Source of the DNA: Clostridia bacterium
Lineage (GTDB): Bacteria > Bacillota > Clostridia > Christensenellales > UBA1242
Length of the DNA stretch: 64,000 nucleotides
NCBI GenBank assembly: GCA_017467585.1
Contig: JAFUSR010000003.1
Span: 1-64,000 of the forward strand
Direction: 5' to 3'
The position numbers and the translations under genes were made by a program. Below, one piece after another: positions 5,262 to 15,113 of this stretch. Every line of letters starts with the position of its first letter. Positions within the stretch are counted from its first letter, which is position 1. Under the pieces are notes generated by a model, which ran no database searches, was not told where the DNA came from, and saw only the letters and a list, made by a program, of their open reading frames with translations.

Positions 5262-6458
5262 ATGCGCGCATTTGGCACATGTTGTTATGGTGTTAGAACA
5301 CCAGTTATTAAAAGCGGAGACAATCTTGCACAAATTGTTGTTGACTCTGTTTTAGAGGTTGCAAAACAAAGACAAATTGAACTCAAAGATAGAGACATTG
5401 TTGCAATAACCGAAGCTGTTGTTGGAATCTCTCAAGGAAACTACGCAACAACTGATCAAATTGGCAAGGATGTTGAAAAAAAGTTTGGTGGCAAAGAACA
5501 TTTGGGAGTTGTGTTTCCAACACCAGTAAGCAGAAATAGATTTTCGCTTATTCTAGAAGGTATTGCAAAAGGTGCAAAAAAAATCACCCTTCAGTTTGCT
5601 TACCCTGCAGATGAAGTCGGCAATGAACTTTTTGATGAGGAACTTCTTTATAAATATCATATTGACCCATGGGGCCAAATTTTAACCGAAGAAGAATATA
5701 ATAAATATTTTGGAAAAGAACTTCACATCTTTACCGGTGTTAACTACGTTAAATATTTTAGAGAATTAATTGAAGCACAGGGTGCAGAAGCAGAAATCAT
5801 TTTCTCTAACAATCCACTAAGCATTTTGAATTATACAAAAAATGTTGTTGTTGCAAACATCCATAAACGCGAGCGAACAAAAAAGCTGCTTGTCGAAGCT
5901 GGTGCTAAATTAGTTTTTAAAACAGATGAAATTTTGAGAAAAAGTATTGATGGAAGTGGATATAACTCAAAATATGGATTGCTTGGTTCAAACAAGGCAA
6001 CCGACCACAAAATGAAACTCTTCCCAGAGCATGGCGACAAAGTTGTTAACGAGGTTCAGAAAATGCTTAAAAAGGCCACTGGCAAAAACCTTGAGGTTTT
6101 GGTTTATGGCGATGGCGCATTTAAAGACCCAGTTGGCGGCATTTGGGAACTTGCAGACCCAGTTGTGAGTCCTGCTCACACAAAGGGCTTGGAAGGAACT
6201 CCAAATGAGCTTAAACTTAAATTTATTGCCGATAACACTCTTTCTGAATATAAGGGCGAAGAACTTGTTAACAAAATGAAAGAACAAATCAAAAACAAGT
6301 CTAGCAATCTTAAAGGAACAAATGCAACACTTGGAACAACCCCAAGAAGATACACCGACCTTATTGGTTCGCTATGCGATTTAACCTCTGGAAGCGGTGA
6401 CAAGGGAACACCAGTTGTTCTCATCACTGGTTATTTCGATAACTACGCAACAGAATAG
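5262..6458 (+). CDS. Coenzyme F420-0:L-glutamate ligase (CofE/COG1478) family protein
   Basis: A 398-residue protein whose N-terminal part (TPVIKSGDNL ... LKDRDIVAITEAVVGISQG) matches the F420 ligase family, which in archaea and actinobacteria adds gamma-linked glutamates to F420. It is longer than CofE (about 250 residues). No other F420 biosynthesis gene is visible, so the real substrate is probably another amino-acid ligation target; this is open. The start is fixed by AAAGGAGA; an upstream in-frame ATG at 5220 lies before it without a site. It is followed after 20 nt by an FAD oxidoreductase, likely the same operon. Confidence 0.8.
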   Translation: MRAFGTCCYGVRTPVIKSGDNLAQIVVDSVLEVAKQRQIELKDRDIVAITEAVVGISQGNYATTDQIGKDVEKKFGGKEHLGVVFPTPVSRNRFSLILEGIAKGAKKITLQFAYPADEVGNELFDEELLYKYHIDPWGQILTEEEYNKYFGKELHIFTGVNYVKYFRELIEAQGAEAEIIFSNNPLSILNYTKNVVVANIHKRERTKKLLVEAGAKLVFKTDEILRKSIDGSGYNSKYGLLGSNKATDHKMKLFPEHGDKVVNEVQKMLKKATGKNLEVLVYGDGAFKDPVGGIWELADPVVSPAHTKGLEGTPNELKLKFIADNTLSEYKGEELVNKMKEQIKNKSSNLKGTNATLGTTPRRYTDLIGSLCDLTSGSGDKGTPVVLITGYFDNYATE

Positions 6459-6478
6459 GCTGATTTTAGGAGTTTGCT

Positions 6479-7900
6479 ATGGCTACAAAAAAATATGATT
6501 GCATAATTGTTGGGGCAGGCCCAACGGGCATTTATTCTGCCTATGAATTTATGAAAAAGAGTCCAAAATCACATATATTGGTTGTGGACAAGGGGCATGA
6601 TATATATAATCGCAGATGCCCAATTTTAATGAAAAAACTAACAAAGTGTCCTTCAAATAAAGATGGTCACATTGGTTGCCAACCAAGTTGTTCAATAACA
6701 ACTGGTTTTGGTGGAAGCGGTGCATACTCTGATGGGAAATTTAACATTACCTCTGAATTTGGAGGTTGGATGTGTGACTATCTTCCAGAAGACGAGGTGT
6801 TGGACCTTATTAACTATGTTGACCAAATCAATTTGTCCCATGGTGCCCCTAACATAATAACAGATCCATATACACAAAAGGCTTTCGAAATAGAGAAGAG
6901 GGGCATGGCAGTTGGTTTAAAACTGCTGCACAGCAGGGTTAGACACCTCGGAACAGAAGTTAACCTAAAAGTTTTAGAATCTATTTATGAAGAAATGAAA
7001 AATAAAATAGATTTCATGTTTAAAACCGCTGTTAAAGATGTCTTAATTGAAAATCAAACTGTTAAGGGCATCATCCTTGAAAATGGTGAAGAAATAGTTG
7101 CCGATTATGTTATTCTTGGCGTAGGCCGAAATGGCTCTGAATGGCTGGCTAACGTTTTGTCTAAGCATGGTGTTGAATTTGAAAACAACCGTGTTGATTT
7201 AGGGGTTAGAGTAGAAACAAACAACATTATCATGGAAGAAATAAACAAAAATCTTTATGAAGGAAAGTTTATTTTTAACACAAGTGTTGGTTCAAGAGTT
7301 AGAACGTTTTGTTCAAACCCAAGTGGCCATGTTGTTGTAGAAAATCATCATGGCGTTGCGCTTTGCAATGGTCACTCATATAACGATTCAAGTCTTGGCA
7401 GCGACAACACAAACTTTGCGCTTCTTGTTAGCCAAACTTTTGACAAACCATTTAACGACCCAAATGAATATGCACTTGAACTCAGCAAACTCGCAAACAA
7501 ACTTGCTAATGGTGGAGTCATTGTTCAAAAATATGGCGACATAAAAAAAGGTCGCAGATCAACACAAAAGAGAATAGACGAAGGATTTGTCAGACCAACG
7601 CTAAAAGAGGCTGTGCCTGGCGATTTAGGGCTTGTTTTGCCTTATAATTTTATGAAATCATTAATTGAAATGATAGAGGCATTAGATCATGTTACTCCAG
7701 GAATTGCCAGCGAACACACACTTCTTTATGGAATTGAAGCAAAGTTTTATAGCGACAGACCAATTGTAACAAAAGAGTTTGAAACCAAAATTAAAAATCT
7801 TTATGTTGGTGGCGATGGGGCAGGCATAACTCGTGGGCTTGCTCAGGCCAGTGCAAACGGTGTAAAAATTGCACGCACAATAATTAAAAAACTAAATTAA
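6479..7900 (+). CDS. FAD-dependent oxidoreductase (COG2509-like)
   Basis: A 473-residue flavoprotein. The Rossmann FAD-binding motif VGAGPTG is at residues 11-17; a Cys-rich stretch (RRCP, KCPSNKDGHIGCQPSC, about 47-73) follows, and the C-terminal GGDGAGITRGLAQA closes the FAD site. This pattern fits the uncharacterised COG2509 FAD-dependent dehydrogenases; the electron donor and acceptor are unknown. The Cys cluster could bind metal or form disulfides (inference). Site TTAGGAG 7 nt before the ATG, and co-transcribed with the CofE-like gene. Cytosolic, no signal peptide. Confidence 0.85.
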   Translation: MATKKYDCIIVGAGPTGIYSAYEFMKKSPKSHILVVDKGHDIYNRRCPILMKKLTKCPSNKDGHIGCQPSCSITTGFGGSGAYSDGKFNITSEFGGWMCDYLPEDEVLDLINYVDQINLSHGAPNIITDPYTQKAFEIEKRGMAVGLKLLHSRVRHLGTEVNLKVLESIYEEMKNKIDFMFKTAVKDVLIENQTVKGIILENGEEIVADYVILGVGRNGSEWLANVLSKHGVEFENNRVDLGVRVETNNIIMEEINKNLYEGKFIFNTSVGSRVRTFCSNPSGHVVVENHHGVALCNGHSYNDSSLGSDNTNFALLVSQTFDKPFNDPNEYALELSKLANKLANGGVIVQKYGDIKKGRRSTQKRIDEGFVRPTLKEAVPGDLGLVLPYNFMKSLIEMIEALDHVTPGIASEHTLLYGIEAKFYSDRPIVTKEFETKIKNLYVGGDGAGITRGLAQASANGVKIARTIIKKLN

Positions 7901-7993: not shown

Positions 7994-8070
7994 GTGGATA
8001 TAGCTCAGTTGGATAGAGCGGTCGCCTCCTAAGCGACAGGCCGGCAGTTCGAATCTGCCTATTCACACCA
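7994..8070 (+). tRNA. tRNA-Arg, anticodon CCT
   Basis: A 77-nt cloverleaf: acceptor GTGGATA / TATTCAC (one G-T pair), D-arm with AGCTCAGTTGGATAGAGC, anticodon stem GTCGC / GCGAC around loop CTCCTAA (CCT, reads AGG), T-arm GGCAG / CTGCC with TTCGAAT. The CCA end is encoded. Own promoter and terminator. Confidence 0.97.
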
Positions 8071-8144: not shown

Positions 8145-8173
8145 TAGACAACATTGTTTTTTTGTGATATAAT
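8145..8173 (+). promoter_or_regulatory. SigmaA-type promoter of the hydrolase-like pair
   Basis: TAGACA at 8145-8150, 17-nt spacer, TATAAT at 8168-8173, then a GAGG site before the ATG at 8205. Confidence 0.65.
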
Positions 8174-8204
8174 TCTACATAGAAAACTCTAAGTGAGGCG
8201 AGAT

Positions 8205-9215
8205 ATGGCAGAAAAACAATATGTGAAACTTGGCAAACTGCAATATATTTATGACAATCCAGACGACTTGGTTGCCTCTAGTTTTGGCGATGTTGAGTTA
8301 AACAAAAAAACAGTTTTGATCCTTGGCGGAAACATTACAAATTCAATAGGACATGCCGGAAGATACGCAAAGTATGTGGAGCGTTGGCTCAATAACAAAA
8401 ACAACGTTCACGACATAGATATTTATGCTGCATATTATGATTGTGAGAGCCCTCTTCAAAACAATTATTTGCCAAATCCCGCTTATAACTATGCAGAAAT
8501 GGCACAAACATTAATAGACCAGTGGTTTAAAAGTGGTGGAAAGCTCTTAACAAAACAAGAAATAATTAAAAAGTTAGATAATTTGACAATTTTTTGTCAT
8601 AGTGCCGGCGTAATGGTGTTAAATAACACTTTATATAACATAAAAAGTTTATTGGCGCAGAACAATTTTAGCAACGCCGACATAAAATCAATTTTCTCTC
8701 ACATATATTCAATATCATATGCTCCATTTGATATAGTGGATCAAAAGACAAAGGCGGTTTATATTTGTCCGGCATATGACTCACTTGGCAGTTCGATAAA
8801 ATTAATGCGCTATTTATATGGAAAAGGTGAATTAAAAACTACAGATAATTTTAGTTTCACACGCTTTAGAAAATTTTTGGGAGATAGCCCCATAAAAGCT
8901 CACGAATATTGCATAAAACAGTTAAAAAAAGATGCGATTTGTGTTTCAGACTTTTCAAACAATATAATTGTCATACCAGATTTGTTGTTTGATGCAGAAG
9001 ATCATATCTATGAAGACCATGGGCTTGCGGGAGTTATGCCATATAACGAAATAAACCCAAATCAAACATCAACAGGCAAAATCACATCTACAGTCATTGC
9101 AAAGCTCTTGCAAAATGGTGTATATTCTCCATCTGCACGTAGAAATATCAACGCACTCTTTGACGAAATAACAGAACTATATAAACAAAATTATACAACA
9201 ATTGGAAGGCAATAA
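8205..9215 (+). CDS. Unknown alpha/beta-hydrolase-like protein with Ser nucleophile elbow (pair member A)
   Basis: A 336-residue soluble protein, no signal peptide. It carries an N-terminal strand plus GGN turn (VLILGGNIT, 37-45), a nucleophile-elbow-like FCHSAG (Ser133), a conserved strand SYAP...KAVYICPAYDS (171-193), and NIIVIP followed by a DH pair (271-272), a fitting acid/His site. The next gene repeats this whole order, so they are paralogues. The elbow H-S-A-G at the end of a hydrophobic strand suggests an alpha/beta hydrolase, inferred from motif order only. Start chosen at ATG 8205 (GAGG 7 nt upstream) rather than GTG 8193. Family not recognised. Confidence 0.75.
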   Translation: MAEKQYVKLGKLQYIYDNPDDLVASSFGDVELNKKTVLILGGNITNSIGHAGRYAKYVERWLNNKNNVHDIDIYAAYYDCESPLQNNYLPNPAYNYAEMAQTLIDQWFKSGGKLLTKQEIIKKLDNLTIFCHSAGVMVLNNTLYNIKSLLAQNNFSNADIKSIFSHIYSISYAPFDIVDQKTKAVYICPAYDSLGSSIKLMRYLYGKGELKTTDNFSFTRFRKFLGDSPIKAHEYCIKQLKKDAICVSDFSNNIIVIPDLLFDAEDHIYEDHGLAGVMPYNEINPNQTSTGKITSTVIAKLLQNGVYSPSARRNINALFDEITELYKQNYTTIGRQ

Positions 9216-9218
9216 AAC

Positions 9219-10193
9219 ATGATAACACTAGGCAAACGTTCCATAGGAAAAGAAAATAACTGGGAACGCGTAGAAAAAATTAAAGGAAAAACCATCATAT
9301 TTTTTGGTGGAAACACAACAGACAGTGAACAAGCGGCAAACGGAAACATTAAAATGTTGCAAAGAATTGCAGATCTTGATCCACAAGACTATTCTTTGTT
9401 GTCCGTCAGCTATGGCTCAGAAGTAATCGGTGACAATCACAATGTTTTGAGAAGTGAAGTTTTTCCAGAGATAGAAGAATTCTTTGATAAATATTTTGAG
9501 CCACTGCTATATAACCAATATCACCAAATAAGAAGTGAACAGGGCCTTTGTAAATCTTTTCAAAGGATTGTTTTTTTTGCGCACTGCGCTGGTTGTGATG
9601 TTGTGGATTATCTCATATCACTTTTGCGCATAAGACTTGAATCATTAAAAGAAGAGGGCTACAAAATAACAAATGTAGATAACCTAATAAGAAAGATACA
9701 AGTAATAGCATATGCCCCTCATCAAATGCTTAGTCAGGAGGTTAGAGCGCTATATATTGCGCCACTCAACGACAGTCAACATACTTGGCACGTTGCTTTA
9801 AAATCCCTTGACGGCAAAAAAGATAGAGAATATCCACCATCGTTTACAACCAACTGCAAAAGGCATTGGTTGATGCCAGGAAATTATGTTACGAAAGTTG
9901 TAAAAGAGAATGGATTTGTGCTCATTCAAAAGGGACTAAATGTGGTGGTAATTCCAGGCAAGATTGGAAATGGAAACAACGACCATTCAATTGAATGTCT
10001 TATTCCTGAAACATTAAAAGAAGGTCAAGAAGAAAGCAAAATTGCATATATGATAAGACACTCACTCAGAAAGAGCATTCGCCTCTTTTTGGATGACTCT
10101 CGTTTGCTCTCAACAAATTGTCACGGAATAAATATGCGCGATATATACGACGTGTTTGATAGTTACAGAGCAAGGGAATGGGGTGAAGAATAA
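9219..10193 (+). CDS. Unknown alpha/beta-hydrolase-like protein with Cys in the elbow (pair member B)
   Basis: A 324-residue soluble paralogue of the preceding gene: IIFFGGNTT (26-34), FFAHCAG (Cys123 where member A has Ser133), IAYAPHQ...RALYIAPLNDS (163-186), NVVVIP then DH (255-256). The Ser-to-Cys change keeps a nucleophile, so it could be a thiol hydrolase or transferase rather than a dead copy (inference). Only 3 nt separate it from member A, so translation is probably coupled. The two have diverged over most of their length, so the duplication is old. Substrate and pathway unknown. A terminator follows, so the pair is a complete two-gene operon. Confidence 0.75.
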   Translation: MITLGKRSIGKENNWERVEKIKGKTIIFFGGNTTDSEQAANGNIKMLQRIADLDPQDYSLLSVSYGSEVIGDNHNVLRSEVFPEIEEFFDKYFEPLLYNQYHQIRSEQGLCKSFQRIVFFAHCAGCDVVDYLISLLRIRLESLKEEGYKITNVDNLIRKIQVIAYAPHQMLSQEVRALYIAPLNDSQHTWHVALKSLDGKKDREYPPSFTTNCKRHWLMPGNYVTKVVKENGFVLIQKGLNVVVIPGKIGNGNNDHSIECLIPETLKEGQEESKIAYMIRHSLRKSIRLFLDDSRLLSTNCHGINMRDIYDVFDSYRAREWGEE

Positions 10194-10199
10194 CAAAAT

Positions 10200-10232
10200 A
10201 AAAAGCTCAAACAAGAGAGCTTTTTATTTTTT
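10200..10232 (+). terminator. Rho-independent terminator
   Basis: AAAAAGCTC, 8-nt loop, GAGCTTTTT and further T. Confidence 0.8.
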
Positions 10233-10289: not shown

Positions 10290-10730
10290 TTAATTATTAT
10301 TTAGTTTATTTAACAAATCTTCAAGGGTGTGCCAAGAAAGGGTTGCACACTTTGCGCGTGAAGGCATGTTAGAAACATTTTCAAAAACCCTTGCGTTCTT
10401 AAGCAGTTTCTTTTCTTCTTGAGTTACACTTTCTCTTTTTATCATTTTTAAAAAGATTTCAATTAACTGCTTTGCTTGGTCGACAGATTTTCCTTTTAAA
10501 AGGTCTATCATCATTGATGTTGAGCTTTGAGAGATAGCACATCCTTCGCCAGAAAATCCCATGTCAACAATTTTGCCGTTTTCAATTTTTGCTTCAAGGC
10601 TTATTTTGTCTCCGCAACTTGGGTTATGACCCAAACTAGAACAGGTTGGAGAGTTTATTCCTCTTTTGTTGTGGCTGTTCATGGCGTGTTCCATAATAAG
10701 TTCGCCATAAAGTTGTTCAAATTGGTCCAT
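10290..10730 (-). CDS. sufU: SufU, Fe-S assembly sulfur-acceptor protein
   Basis: A 146-residue IscU/SufU-type protein. The three Cys (Cys39 in NPSCGD with Asp41, Cys64 in GEGC, Cys128 in AKCATLSW) match the zinc/sulfur site of Firmicutes SufU, which takes sulfur from SufS. Last gene of the suf operon, 2 nt after the sufS stop. No clear terminator follows; a weak stem lies at about 10253-10285. Confidence 0.95.
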   Translation of the reverse strand: MDQFEQLYGELIMEHAMNSHNKRGINSPTCSSLGHNPSCGDKISLEAKIENGKIVDMGFSGEGCAISQSSTSMMIDLLKGKSVDQAKQLIEIFLKMIKRESVTQEEKKLLKNARVFENVSNMPSRAKCATLSWHTLEDLLNKLNNN

Positions 10731-10732
10731 TT

Positions 10733-11944
10733 TTACCTCAAATATTTTTTAAACTTGTCAAAAGTATACTCAATTGCCTCAACAAGTTTGTCGACATCTT
10801 CTTTTGTGTTATAAATTGCAAAACTTGCACGCACCGTGCTGTTTATGCCGAGATAGGAAAGTAGTGGTTGGGCGCAGTGATTTCCGCTTCTAACACAAAC
10901 GTTTTGTGTGTTTAAAACTGTTGCAACATCATGTGGATGAAGTCCAACTATGTTGAAAGAAAGAACGCCAGAGCGACTGTTTTTGTTTGGTGAGATATAT
11001 GCTTTAACATATGGCAGTTTGTTTATTTTAGACAGTGCATAATTAACAAGTTCACTTTCTATGGTCTCAATTTGTTTATATCCAATTTTATTCACATAGT
11101 CCAGGGCTGCGGCAAGGCCAACGGCGCCACCAACATTTTGAGTTCCCGCCTCAAACTTGTTAGGCAGTGGCGCAAATGTTGTAGATTGTTCATTAACATA
11201 TTCTATCATGTGGCCGCCAAACATATATGGGCGCATTTTTTCTAGCAACTGCTTTTTGCCAAAGAGCACGCCAATTCCAAGTGGGGCATAAATTTTATGA
11301 CCAGAAAATGCCAAAAAGTCTGCATCTAAATCTTTAACATCAATTTGTTTGTGAGCTATGGCTTGTGCCGCGTCTACAAGCACAACTGCGCCAACGCTGT
11401 GGGCTTTTTTGATGATGTTTTTCACGTCAACAACAGTGCCAAGAACGTTAGAAACCATTGTTATTGCAACAAACTTTGTGTTTTTGTCGATTTTGTTGAG
11501 CTCTTTTTTGTCGATTTCATAATTGTCATTTAAATAAAGATATTCAAGTGTTGCATGTTTTTGCTGTGCAATTTGTTGCCAAGGAACAAGATTGCTGTGG
11601 TGTTCCATTATTGAAATAACAATTTTGTCGCCATTTTTAATTAAGTCTTGAACAAAGCATGAAGCGACAAGGTTTGTAGACTCTGTTGTGCCTTTAGTAA
11701 AGATAATTTGACTTGGGTCGCCAGCGTTGATAAAGCTTGCCACCTTTTGTCTTGCGTCTTCATAGGCAGTTGTTGCCTTTTCGCTTATGGTGTAAACTCC
11801 GCTGTGAATATTTGAGTTGAACGACTTATAAAAGTTGTTGACGGCATCAATAACGCACTGTGGTTTTTGGGTTGTTGCTGCGCTGTCGAGATAAACAATA
11901 TCTTGGCTGGCAAGCAGTGGAAAATCTTTTTTAAAATTATTCAT
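10733..11944 (-). CDS. sufS: Cysteine desulfurase SufS
   Basis: A 403-residue class II cysteine desulfurase, which releases sulfur from cysteine as a persulfide for Fe-S cluster assembly. The PLP Lys is Lys217 in SGHKIYAP, the PLP-contact His in MEHHSN (about 114-118), and the active Cys is Cys357 in RSGNHCAQP. Length is normal. The start overlaps the end of sufD by 8 nt, so it is translationally coupled. Confidence 0.97.
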   Translation of the reverse strand: MNNFKKDFPLLASQDIVYLDSAATTQKPQCVIDAVNNFYKSFNSNIHSGVYTISEKATTAYEDARQKVASFINAGDPSQIIFTKGTTESTNLVASCFVQDLIKNGDKIVISIMEHHSNLVPWQQIAQQKHATLEYLYLNDNYEIDKKELNKIDKNTKFVAITMVSNVLGTVVDVKNIIKKAHSVGAVVLVDAAQAIAHKQIDVKDLDADFLAFSGHKIYAPLGIGVLFGKKQLLEKMRPYMFGGHMIEYVNEQSTTFAPLPNKFEAGTQNVGGAVGLAAALDYVNKIGYKQIETIESELVNYALSKINKLPYVKAYISPNKNSRSGVLSFNIVGLHPHDVATVLNTQNVCVRSGNHCAQPLLSYLGINSTVRASFAIYNTKEDVDKLVEAIEYTFDKFKKYLR

Positions 11945-12971
11945 TTTCTTCTAACTTCCTATCAATTTTATTTATTATATGATTTTGAATTTCAGGATTG
12001 ACATCTTGAAGAATTTTGTTGAATTTTGCCTTTACAATTAATTTTGTTGCGTCGGTTTTAGACAGACCTCTGCTCATCAAATAAAACAGGGCTTTTGTGT
12101 CGATTTTTCCAGTTGCGGTGCTGTGGCTACCTTCAACATCTTCTTCGTGGCAAAGAAGCATTGGCAGTGCTTTAACTTTTGCTTTTTGTGATAGCATCAA
12201 ACAAAGTTCATTTTCTGAGCCAAAGCTTTTTGTTGAGCCCTGCTTAAAGTCAATGGTTCCTCTAAAATTTTTAACTGCGTTGTTTGCGGCCGCACCAACT
12301 GCATTGATTGTTGTGTTGCAGTTTTTTGCAAGCAAGTTGTTTGATAGGTTAATGTCAAGCAGTCCGTCATTAGAAACAAAATACATCATTTTTATGTGTG
12401 CTTGGCTGTTTTCTCCAACAAGATTTGTTGTTGATTTAATTATTGACCTTGAGTCGCAAAAATCAACAATGTTAATATTGCACATGGCATTTTCGTTTGT
12501 TTCAACTTCAATTGTTTGATAGTTCTCGCATCCCGCAAGGTCATTTAATATGGTGATATTTGATGTAGAACCATTTTTGCACACAATGTGCAAAAAGTTG
12601 TTTAAATAGGCTGGCGTTTCAGACTCAAACAAAACAATTATATCTCTCTTTGTGTCTTCATTTAAAACCAATTCGAGTCTGCCAACCATTTGATTGTTGG
12701 TTGTGTCTAAATGCGACTTAATTATCAGTGGTTCGTCAGATGAATTTGCAACAACTTTAAGTGCAGTGTTGCTGCATTTTAGTTGTTCAAGAGACTCATT
12801 GCAGAGTGGGTCTTTAGGCAGAGCATCACACCTTTCAACCAAATAGTCCTTTGCAAAGGCGGCAGTGCCGGAAAATGGTTTAACTTTTTTGCTAAATGTG
12901 CCGTCTTCAACTGTTACAAAGTTAATTCCATAGTTTTGAGAGGTTAAAACTGGAGAAAAATTAATTTTCAT
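11937..12971 (-). CDS. sufD: SufD, Fe-S scaffold complex subunit
   Basis: A 344-residue SufB/SufD-family protein with the shared right-handed helix core and the C-terminal motif HEEDVEGSHSTATGKID followed by LFYLMSRGLS, as in SufD. It forms the SufBC2D scaffold. Shorter than typical SufD (about 430), lacking most of the N-terminal region. Start: ATG 12971 is used here; a TTG at 12980 overlapping the sufB end has a closer site (AGAGGGGG, about 4 nt) and is a real alternative. Confidence 0.93.
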   Translation of the reverse strand: MKINFSPVLTSQNYGINFVTVEDGTFSKKVKPFSGTAAFAKDYLVERCDALPKDPLCNESLEQLKCSNTALKVVANSSDEPLIIKSHLDTTNNQMVGRLELVLNEDTKRDIIVLFESETPAYLNNFLHIVCKNGSTSNITILNDLAGCENYQTIEVETNENAMCNINIVDFCDSRSIIKSTTNLVGENSQAHIKMMYFVSNDGLLDINLSNNLLAKNCNTTINAVGAAANNAVKNFRGTIDFKQGSTKSFGSENELCLMLSQKAKVKALPMLLCHEEDVEGSHSTATGKIDTKALFYLMSRGLSKTDATKLIVKAKFNKILQDVNPEIQNHIINKIDRKLEENE

Positions 12972-12972
12972 A

Positions 12973-14373
12973 TTATCCAATCGCCCCCTCTAATTCAAGA
13001 TTAATCAGTCTGTTCATTTCAACTGCATATTCAAGTGGCAATTCTTTAGAAACTGGGCTGGCAAATCCGCGAACAATCATGGCTTTTGCATCGTCTTCTG
13101 AAAGACCTCTGCTCATCAAATAGAAAATAGCTTTTTCGCTAATTTTGCCAACTTTTGCCTCGTGAGAAAACTCTGCATCGCTTGTTTGAACATCATTAAC
13201 AGGAATGGTGTCGCTTTTAGACAGGCTGTCGAGCATAAGTCCGTCGCAACTAACCGAGCACTTGCTGTTTGTTGCCTCTGGCAAAATTTTTACAAGCGCG
13301 CGATAGGTCGCAATTCCGCCATTTTTAGAAATGCTTCTAGAGTTAACAACGCTCGATGTGTTTTTTGCAGCGTGAACAACTTTAAAGCCAGTGTCTAGGT
13401 TTTGGTTTGCACCAGCAAAAGAGATGCCGGTGTATTCGGTTTTTGCGTTTTCACCTTTTAAAATACTCATAGGATAGAGCATAGAAATTTTGCTGCCGAA
13501 ACTTCCGCTAACCCAATCAACCTTGCCATTTTTTTCAATTATGGCTTTTTTTGTGTTGAGGTTGAGCATGTTTTTAGACCAGTTTTCAATTGTTGAATAT
13601 CTTAGGTATGCGCCTTCTTTAACAAAAAGTTCAACGCAACCAGCGTGAAGGTTAACCTTGTTATATTTTGGCGCGCTGCAGCCTTCAATGAAGTGCAGTT
13701 TTGCACCTTTGTCAACAATAATCAAAGTATGCTCAAATTGCCCACTTTCTGGTGAGTTAAGTCTGAAATAAGATTGCAGTGGTTGATCTAGTTCAACGCC
13801 ACTCGGAACATAAACAAAGCTGCCGCCGCTCCAAACGGCATAGTGAAGGGCAATGAACTTGTGTTCAAAAAGAGGAACGCACTTTGTAAAATACTCTCGC
13901 ACAAGGTCGGGATATTCGCGAACAGCGCTTTCCATGTCGGTGTAGATTACGCCTTTTTTAAGAAGGTCGGCTTTGATTGAGTGATAAACAACTTCGCTGT
14001 CATATTGCGCACCAACGCCTGCTAGATATTGCTTTTCAGCCTCGGGAATTCCAAGCTTATCGAAGGTGTTTTTAATCTCTGAGGGAACGTCTTCCCATTT
14101 ATCTTTCATTTCTGTTTTTGGTTGAACATAGGTTGAAATTTCATCCATATTTAGTTCCGACAGGTCTGGTCCCCAAGTTGGCAAGCTCAGTTTGTTATAA
14201 GTTTCAAGGGCTTTAAGGCGAATGTCTAGCATCCATTTTGGCTCGTTTTTCCTGCGAGAAATGTCTTCAACAATTTCACGAGAAAGGCCACCCTTTGCCT
14301 TAAAAGAGTAGTCATCTGGATTTTTAAAATCATAGATGTTTCTATTTAGTTCTTCAAGTTGTGTTTTTGCCAT
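12973..14373 (-). CDS. sufB: SufB, Fe-S scaffold subunit
   Basis: A 466-residue SufB with the family's conserved middle (YVPSGVELDQPLQSYFR, about residue 190-207; HFIEGCSAP, about 228-236) and the C-terminal SHEAKVGKISEKAIFYLMSRGLSEDDA. It receives sulfur and assembles the cluster with SufC and SufD. ATG overlaps the sufC stop by 1 nt (TAATG). Confidence 0.97.
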   Translation of the reverse strand: MAKTQLEELNRNIYDFKNPDDYSFKAKGGLSREIVEDISRRKNEPKWMLDIRLKALETYNKLSLPTWGPDLSELNMDEISTYVQPKTEMKDKWEDVPSEIKNTFDKLGIPEAEKQYLAGVGAQYDSEVVYHSIKADLLKKGVIYTDMESAVREYPDLVREYFTKCVPLFEHKFIALHYAVWSGGSFVYVPSGVELDQPLQSYFRLNSPESGQFEHTLIIVDKGAKLHFIEGCSAPKYNKVNLHAGCVELFVKEGAYLRYSTIENWSKNMLNLNTKKAIIEKNGKVDWVSGSFGSKISMLYPMSILKGENAKTEYTGISFAGANQNLDTGFKVVHAAKNTSSVVNSRSISKNGGIATYRALVKILPEATNSKCSVSCDGLMLDSLSKSDTIPVNDVQTSDAEFSHEAKVGKISEKAIFYLMSRGLSEDDAKAMIVRGFASPVSKELPLEYAVEMNRLINLELEGAIG

Positions 14374-15113
14374 TATTTTCCCTTAAATGTTGAATATCCG
14401 TGTTTGTCAATTTCGTCAGCAAGCGACTTGTCGCCTGTGTGAACAATTTTTCCATCAACTAAAACGTGAACGAAATAGTTGTCGAGTTTTTCGAGAATTT
14501 TTGTTGAGTGAGTGATTATAATAAGAGCTCTGTCGCTGTTTAAAAACATATTAATTCCGTTAGAAACGGTTTTAATTGCGTCAACGTCGAGTCCAGAATC
14601 GGTTTCGTCCAAAATGGCGAGTGTTGGTTTAAGTTCTAGCATTTGCAAAATCTCATTTTTCTTTTTTTCGCCACCAGAAAATCCCACGTTCAAGTCTCTA
14701 TTTTGCATGTTTTCTTGCATAGAAAGGGCATTCATGTTTTCTGCGATTTCATCTTTAAGCTCAAAAAAGTCAACCGGAGCACCGCTTAATTTGTTCTTTG
14801 CGGTTTTAATAAAGTTAAAAACAGAAATCCCAGCAATTTCTTCTGGTTGCTGAAAGCTCATAAAAATTCCGAGTTTTGCAATCTCATTTGTTTTTTTGTT
14901 GGTTATGTCTTGACCTTTAAAAACAATTGACCCCTTGGTTTTTTGATATTCTGGGTGAGAGAATATAACGTTTGCAAGAGTGCTTTTGCCAGCTCCATTT
15001 GGGCCCATGATAACATGAACTTCGCCAGGGTTAACCGAAAGATTAAGTCCTTTCAAAATTTCTTTGTCACCGACTTTTGCATGCAGATTTTTTATGTCTA
15101 AAAGTTTTTCCAT
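14373..15113 (-). CDS. sufC: SufC, Fe-S assembly ATPase
   Basis: A 246-residue ABC-type ATPase of the SUF system. Walker A GPNGAGKST (38-46), signature FSGGEKKKNE and Walker B LAILDETDSGLDVDA match SufC. First gene of sufCBDSU, with all junctions overlapping or within a few nt. No AGGAG before the ATG other than a weak TAGGAA. Confidence 0.97.
   Translation of the reverse strand: MEKLLDIKNLHAKVGDKEILKGLNLSVNPGEVHVIMGPNGAGKSTLANVIFSHPEYQKTKGSIVFKGQDITNKKTNEIAKLGIFMSFQQPEEIAGISVFNFIKTAKNKLSGAPVDFFELKDEIAENMNALSMQENMQNRDLNVGFSGGEKKKNEILQMLELKPTLAILDETDSGLDVDAIKTVSNGINMFLNSDRALIIITHSTKILEKLDNYFVHVLVDGKIVHTGDKSLADEIDKHGYSTFKGK

Follow-up and report, generated by a model that had tools for sequence, protein, structure and literature searches.

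The locus raises the question of what is made by two adjacent, widely diverged genes of which the first product (P1) has Ser and the second (P2) Cys at an equivalent position, and what the two might do together. They lie in a stretch of 64,000 nt, hereafter the window (Table 1). The earlier note had read the genes as a tandem pair with its own promoter and terminator, and this description holds: both open reading frames are intact, on the same strand and separated by 3 nt (P1 stop at 9213-9215, P2 ATG at 9219), with a promoter-like site 5' and a terminator-like hairpin 3' of the unit. The start of P1 was placed at the ATG at 8205 rather than at the GTG at 8193 because a Shine-Dalgarno-like GAGG is found at 8195-8198; the corresponding sequence of P2, GGAAGG, is near 9204-9209, within the 3' end of P1. 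The GC contents of P1 (0.34) and P2 (0.37) are close to that of the window (0.373). A tRNA-targeting element was rejected as the source of the pair, as no duplicated tRNA 3' end was found flanking it or downstream of it. The downstream genes, which we take from reading their sequences to be SUF genes, are also present as a cluster in the congener G002, where the pair is not beside them; in a profile search neither G002 nor G001 had a detectable member of the family described below.

Table 1. Features of the hydrolase locus and its surroundings (window positions unless a contig or locus handle is given).
Feature	Position	Strand	Remarks
P1, gene 1, 336 aa	8205..9215	+	Ser-type alpha/beta hydrolase (predicted); Ser133 (8601-8603), Asp192 (8778-8780), His272 (9018-9020)
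P2, gene 2, 324 aa	9219..10193	+	Cys-type alpha/beta hydrolase (predicted); Cys123 (9585-9587), Asp185 (9771-9773), His256 (9984-9986)
Sigma-70-like promoter, TAGACA-17-TATAAT, TG before -10 (extended -10)	8145..8173	+	11/12 consensus positions, the best site of the stretch; identified by consensus only
Terminator-like palindromic hairpin, perfect 14-bp arms, T-rich on both strands	10195..10230	.	directly 3' of the P2 stop
tRNA-Arg(CCT), upstream of the pair	7994..8070	+	context
SUF iron-sulphur cluster genes (presumed), convergent, downstream of the pair	10290..15113	-	context
Chromosomal T4SS gene set, right of the window	G000:C1 about 66660-91490 (L160 3160-18854, L161 9-8489)		same contig as the window

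The two proteins are paralogues, as had been proposed, and they have indeed diverged widely: BLASTP aligns them with 53.5 bits (E 1e-12) at 22% identity over 258 aa, and a search of its own genome with P1 gave P1 and P2 and nothing else. The motifs on which the proposal was based could all be located. GGN is at 41-43 in P1 and 30-32 in P2, the elbow reads C-H-S-A-G around Ser133 and A-H-C-A-G around Cys123, and both proteins contain the YAP...YI.P..DS and DH motifs. These likenesses are not due to chance, since the nucleophile, Asp and His columns are conserved across 103 homologues. The DH motif, which had been singled out as a pair, supplies the catalytic His; its Asp, on the other hand, is probably not the catalytic acid, a role most likely taken by Asp192 in P1 and Asp185 in P2, which belong to the 'DS' motif and come after a beta strand.

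Structures predicted singly by AlphaFold2 from 63-member alignments gave a pLDDT of 85 and a pTM of 0.88 for P1, with low confidence in the region ~200-255, and 92.6 and 0.92 for P2. In the P1 model, strand 127-132 leads through Ser133 into helix 135-152, the Asp follows strand 183-187 and the His follows the last strand (253-257); in P2 the corresponding elements are strand 117-122, Cys123, helix 125-145, strand 176-180 and last strand 241-246. The nucleophile thus sits in a strand-turn-helix elbow with a small-X-Nuc-X-small motif, as judged from the AlphaFold2 secondary structure, and the acid and His come after late strands in the order Nuc-acid-His, an arrangement that is conserved in the homologues. 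The predicted triads, Ser133-Asp192-His272 and Cys123-Asp185-His256, are in canonical alpha/beta-hydrolase order. When the models were compared with the PDB using Foldseek, Obc1 (5iky) was the top match for both P1 (E 1.7e-5) and P2 (E 8.4e-5), followed mostly by esterases, lipases and cutinases. Probabilities reached 1.00 against Obc1, esterases and lipases, with TM-scores of only ~0.25-0.46, the low values against solved hydrolases being due to long insertions; the esterases, lipases and cutinases have the core fold in common with P1 and P2 at ~10% identity. The modelling therefore agrees with the fold suspected from the motifs, and predicts for both proteins an alpha/beta-hydrolase-like fold with Ser or Cys at the nucleophile elbow.

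The suggestion that the pair matches no known system also stands, in that neither protein had more than chance-level matches in Pfam, NCBIfam or PHROGs, and profiles run against PDB sequences likewise gave chance-level matches only. The nearest structural match is the C-terminal domain of Obc1 (Pfam PF21498, Obc1_C; PDB 5iky/5ikz), from Burkholderia oxalate biosynthesis. PF21498 matches 14 of 63 relatives in the nucleophile region (best E 3.6e-7), its curated cut-off of 27 bits being passed in one of 307 genomes over a 77-position stretch; neither of the window proteins is matched by it. Unlike Obc1, they are stand-alone reading frames of 336 and 324 aa from which the N-terminal condensing (ObcA-like) part is absent, most nucleophiles of their family are Cys, and nothing links the pair to oxalate.

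Cys takes the place of Ser at the elbow, together with His and Asp, in other alpha/beta hydrolases, namely dienelactone hydrolase, PHA synthase and intracellular PHB depolymerase. The Pfam families of such Cys-nucleophile enzymes gave no credible match to the pair. A mechanistic parallel is offered by the mammalian BAAT/Acnat/ACOT type-1 enzymes, which have the same Cys/Ser-Asp-His triad and in which Cys and Ser have been exchanged repeatedly between paralogues (PMC6934887). In human BAAT, replacing Cys235 by Ser reduces glycine conjugation, and the enzyme gains hydrolase activity (PMC6934887), so the exchange in itself is not new. The parallel is one of mechanism only, as there is no sequence match: the BAAT/ACOT type-1 Pfam model gave no match in P1 or P2, and the families listed for 63 relatives did not include it. 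The fold, then, is already known; what is new is the hydrolase family and its setting.

This is a large, undescribed and fast-diverging family, so far found only in one GTDB family, a poorly understood group of gut Christensenellales, probably UBA1242, with reduced genomes of ~1 Mb. A profile search found members in 76 of 309 genomes of that group, spread over 17 of 42 genera, and a local search brought the total to 103 reading frames, with one to four copies per genome and tandem expansions. All matches in a sample of genomes from the order fell inside the one GTDB family, and in a sample from the phylum the query genome alone was matched. A single-protein scan of genome contigs gave no match, and nor did searches of phages, plasmids and viral contigs with the members tried. 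Identity between members is ~20%, the nearest homologue of the window genes is only 32% identical, and the family genes often evolve faster than those next to them; a pattern search could not be based on the broad alignment, so far had its sequences diverged. The triad is largely retained, with Asp in 97 of 99 and His in 99 of 100 members at the acid and base columns, and with Cys (83) or Ser (16) in 99 of 101 at the nucleophile column, the remainder being one Asn and one Thr, the latter in a decayed copy. Between close homologues of the family, relatives of P1 and P2 rather than the two themselves, dN/dS is ~0.04-0.3, and the family genes therefore look functional.

Several kinds of C-terminal extension are seen, and in one case (L105 5356-7146) the family domain follows an N-terminal region matching the Phage_YunG-like model PF24591 (E 1.3e-6). 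A subgroup of 484-488 aa (L122, L125, L126 and L127) has a common C-terminal part of ~213 aa; it keeps the Cys and lacks the usual Gly two residues on (YCDS/FCNS/YCAA). Nearly all family proteins are without a hydrophobic N-terminus, and no signal peptide was found; the hydrophobic N-termini of five reading frames were discounted, being mostly the result of over-long start calls.

The earlier note had asked whether the pair and its Ser/Cys split are conserved in relatives. They do recur: in G228, of a second genus, an HSAG gene precedes an HCGG gene with a gap of 19 nt (L089), the same order as in the window. P1 and the first L089 gene form a P1-type clade with 99% support, while monophyly of P2 and the second L089 gene was neither supported nor rejected (p-AU 0.27). 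In L085 an HC..G gene is preceded by a decayed HS..G copy, perhaps the remains of a Ser-then-Cys tandem in a third genus, and the single Ser-type genes of g39 and g40, two further genera, are closely related to the pair. Most members, on the other hand, are single Cys enzymes outside tandems, and several tandems are Cys/Cys (L060, L102 and L111/L113) and one is Asn/Cys (L114). The split is thus recurrent and not the rule, so that neither the obligate heterodimer nor the two-step pathway that had been suggested is implied by it. About six Ser/Cys changes are needed on a quick tree of the family; such repeated swaps, even within one operon, provide a natural set for asking how Ser or Cys affects acyl chemistry. 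Two of the Cys/Cys tandems, L060 and L102, come directly after a gene that we take to be recF, and L102 lies between this gene and a presumed gyrB.

We consider it probable that the pair consists of two catalytically competent alpha/beta-hydrolase acyl-enzymes from an old tandem duplication, belonging to this lineage-specific family. The reading is built on homology, the predicted fold, conservation of the triad, purifying selection in the family and recurrence of the Ser/Cys tandem, and from these we infer an acyl-enzyme mechanism and a division of labour. Both proteins would be made in the cytosol. A covalent acyl-enzyme would form on Ser133 of P1 or Cys123 of P2, with His272 or His256 as the general base and Asp192 or Asp185 as the acid, the oxyanion hole probably being provided by the GGN loop, and the acyl group would then be passed to water or to another acceptor. 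A Cys nucleophile, the family norm, would fit thioester chemistry or acyl transfer, and the Ser form would fit hydrolysis; the paralogues would therefore bring about different outcomes with one acyl substrate or with two related ones. It counts against this reading that in most tandems Ser-type and Cys-type are not paired.

No conserved pathway partner that would point to a substrate was found: in 92 loci searched, no neighbouring gene was consistent apart from the paralogues. The neighbours that do recur look to us, on reading their sequences, like housekeeping genes (gyrA/B, mnmE, recF, EF-P), and most likely recur by position rather than by function.

What acyl-enzymes of this kind are for can be answered in several ways. 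A role in cytosolic metabolism, such as Obc1_C-like cleavage of acyl-CoA adducts, or thioesterase or acyltransferase activity, by which a scavenging bacterium would process lipids or carboxylates, is quite conceivable, if short of an even chance. Obc1 as the top structural match of both proteins, the Obc1_C matches in 14 of 63 members, the intact triad, purifying selection and the absence of a signal peptide all agree with it, yet the Obc1_C cut-off was passed by one genome only, through ~75 residues round the nucleophile, neither a partner domain nor a metabolic operon has been kept, and a patchy presence with ~20% identity would be unusual for core metabolism. It seems improbable to us that the two form an obligate heteromer in which P1 has a regulatory or structural role towards the Cys enzyme P2. 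All the tight tandem loci found have a Cys-type gene in second place, two genera have kept the Ser/Cys order, and the first gene of L114 is without the whole triad, as would be expected of a pseudoenzyme partner; with Cys as the norm in the family, however, a Cys-type gene in that place would be expected anyway, most members are single genes, and P1 keeps a full triad. The L114 protein itself (6053-7762, 570 aa) has lost the triad fully, with HNFG at the elbow, Ser for Asp and Gln for His, and, its gene being immediately followed by an intact Cys-type copy, is a candidate pseudoenzyme partner. Anti-phage defence or an association with restriction is a very remote prospect: the family is patchy, divergent and multi-copy, and L113 adjoins an HNH endonuclease and a D12 methyltransferase, but PADLOC found no credible match among 63 members (a stray REase_II in one, E 0.0028) and the recurring neighbours are housekeeping-like.

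Delivery of the proteins as effectors, by a chromosomal type IV secretion system (T4SS), into partner gut microbes, where they would act on lipids or acylated molecules, is a tentative alternative that we hold to be about as conceivable as the metabolic role and likewise short of an even chance. UBA1242, probably the group in question, has been described as symbiont- or parasite-like (PMC12306168), and the bacterial family that carries the hydrolases is suspected of depending on other cells for its living. Confinement to this group of ~1-Mb genomes, the patchy distribution and tandem expansions, the varied C-terminal extensions and the one N-terminal fusion would suit effectors, as would the lack of a signal peptide, which is expected of T4SS substrates. 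At one locus in two draft genomes, G276 and G277, the hydrolase pair is 61-81% identical between flanks that are 93-100% identical, resembling allele replacement. Fast divergence, varied extensions, a swapped allele and a conserved T4SS together lend the effector role some plausibility. Against it, no recognised translocation signal or common C-terminal tail was seen, the hydrolases are 57 kb from the T4SS genes in the genome of the window (G000), the coupling protein also occurs in genomes without hydrolases, and purifying selection is strong. A more specific version, in which diversifying Cys/Ser hydrolases are injected by a domesticated, possibly relaxase-less T4SS and the pair couples acyl transfer to hydrolysis on the partner's molecules, we regard as doubtful. 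Were the proteins delivered by the conserved T4SS, they would offer an initial molecular entry to the question of how these presumed symbionts or parasites exploit other cells.

The tandem in question belongs to two species (L111 1-2089 and L113 3646-5941). Between them DNA identity falls sharply, from 97-100% in the EF-P gene to 61-81% in the hydrolase tandem next to it, the other flanks being 93-94% identical; this may reflect either the replacement of an allele or hyperdivergence confined to the locus.

A type VII route was also considered and rejected, all matches to the EssC model being below cut-off; the main one in each genome we take from its sequence to be FtsK. The T4SS coupling protein VirD4 was found in 15 of 16 genomes of the GTDB family and a relaxase, searched for with the PF03432 model only, in none of the 16. 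In G000, VirD4 (CD1115 family) and VirB4 (Mbov_0397 family) are over cut-off and are accompanied by small pilin-like proteins and large VirB6-like genes, in a set that lies between what we presume to be housekeeping genes. The products of the large genes range from 850 to 2787 aa; those of 2787 and 1966 aa have no Pfam match, and that of 850 aa resembles mycoplasma ICE transmembrane proteins.
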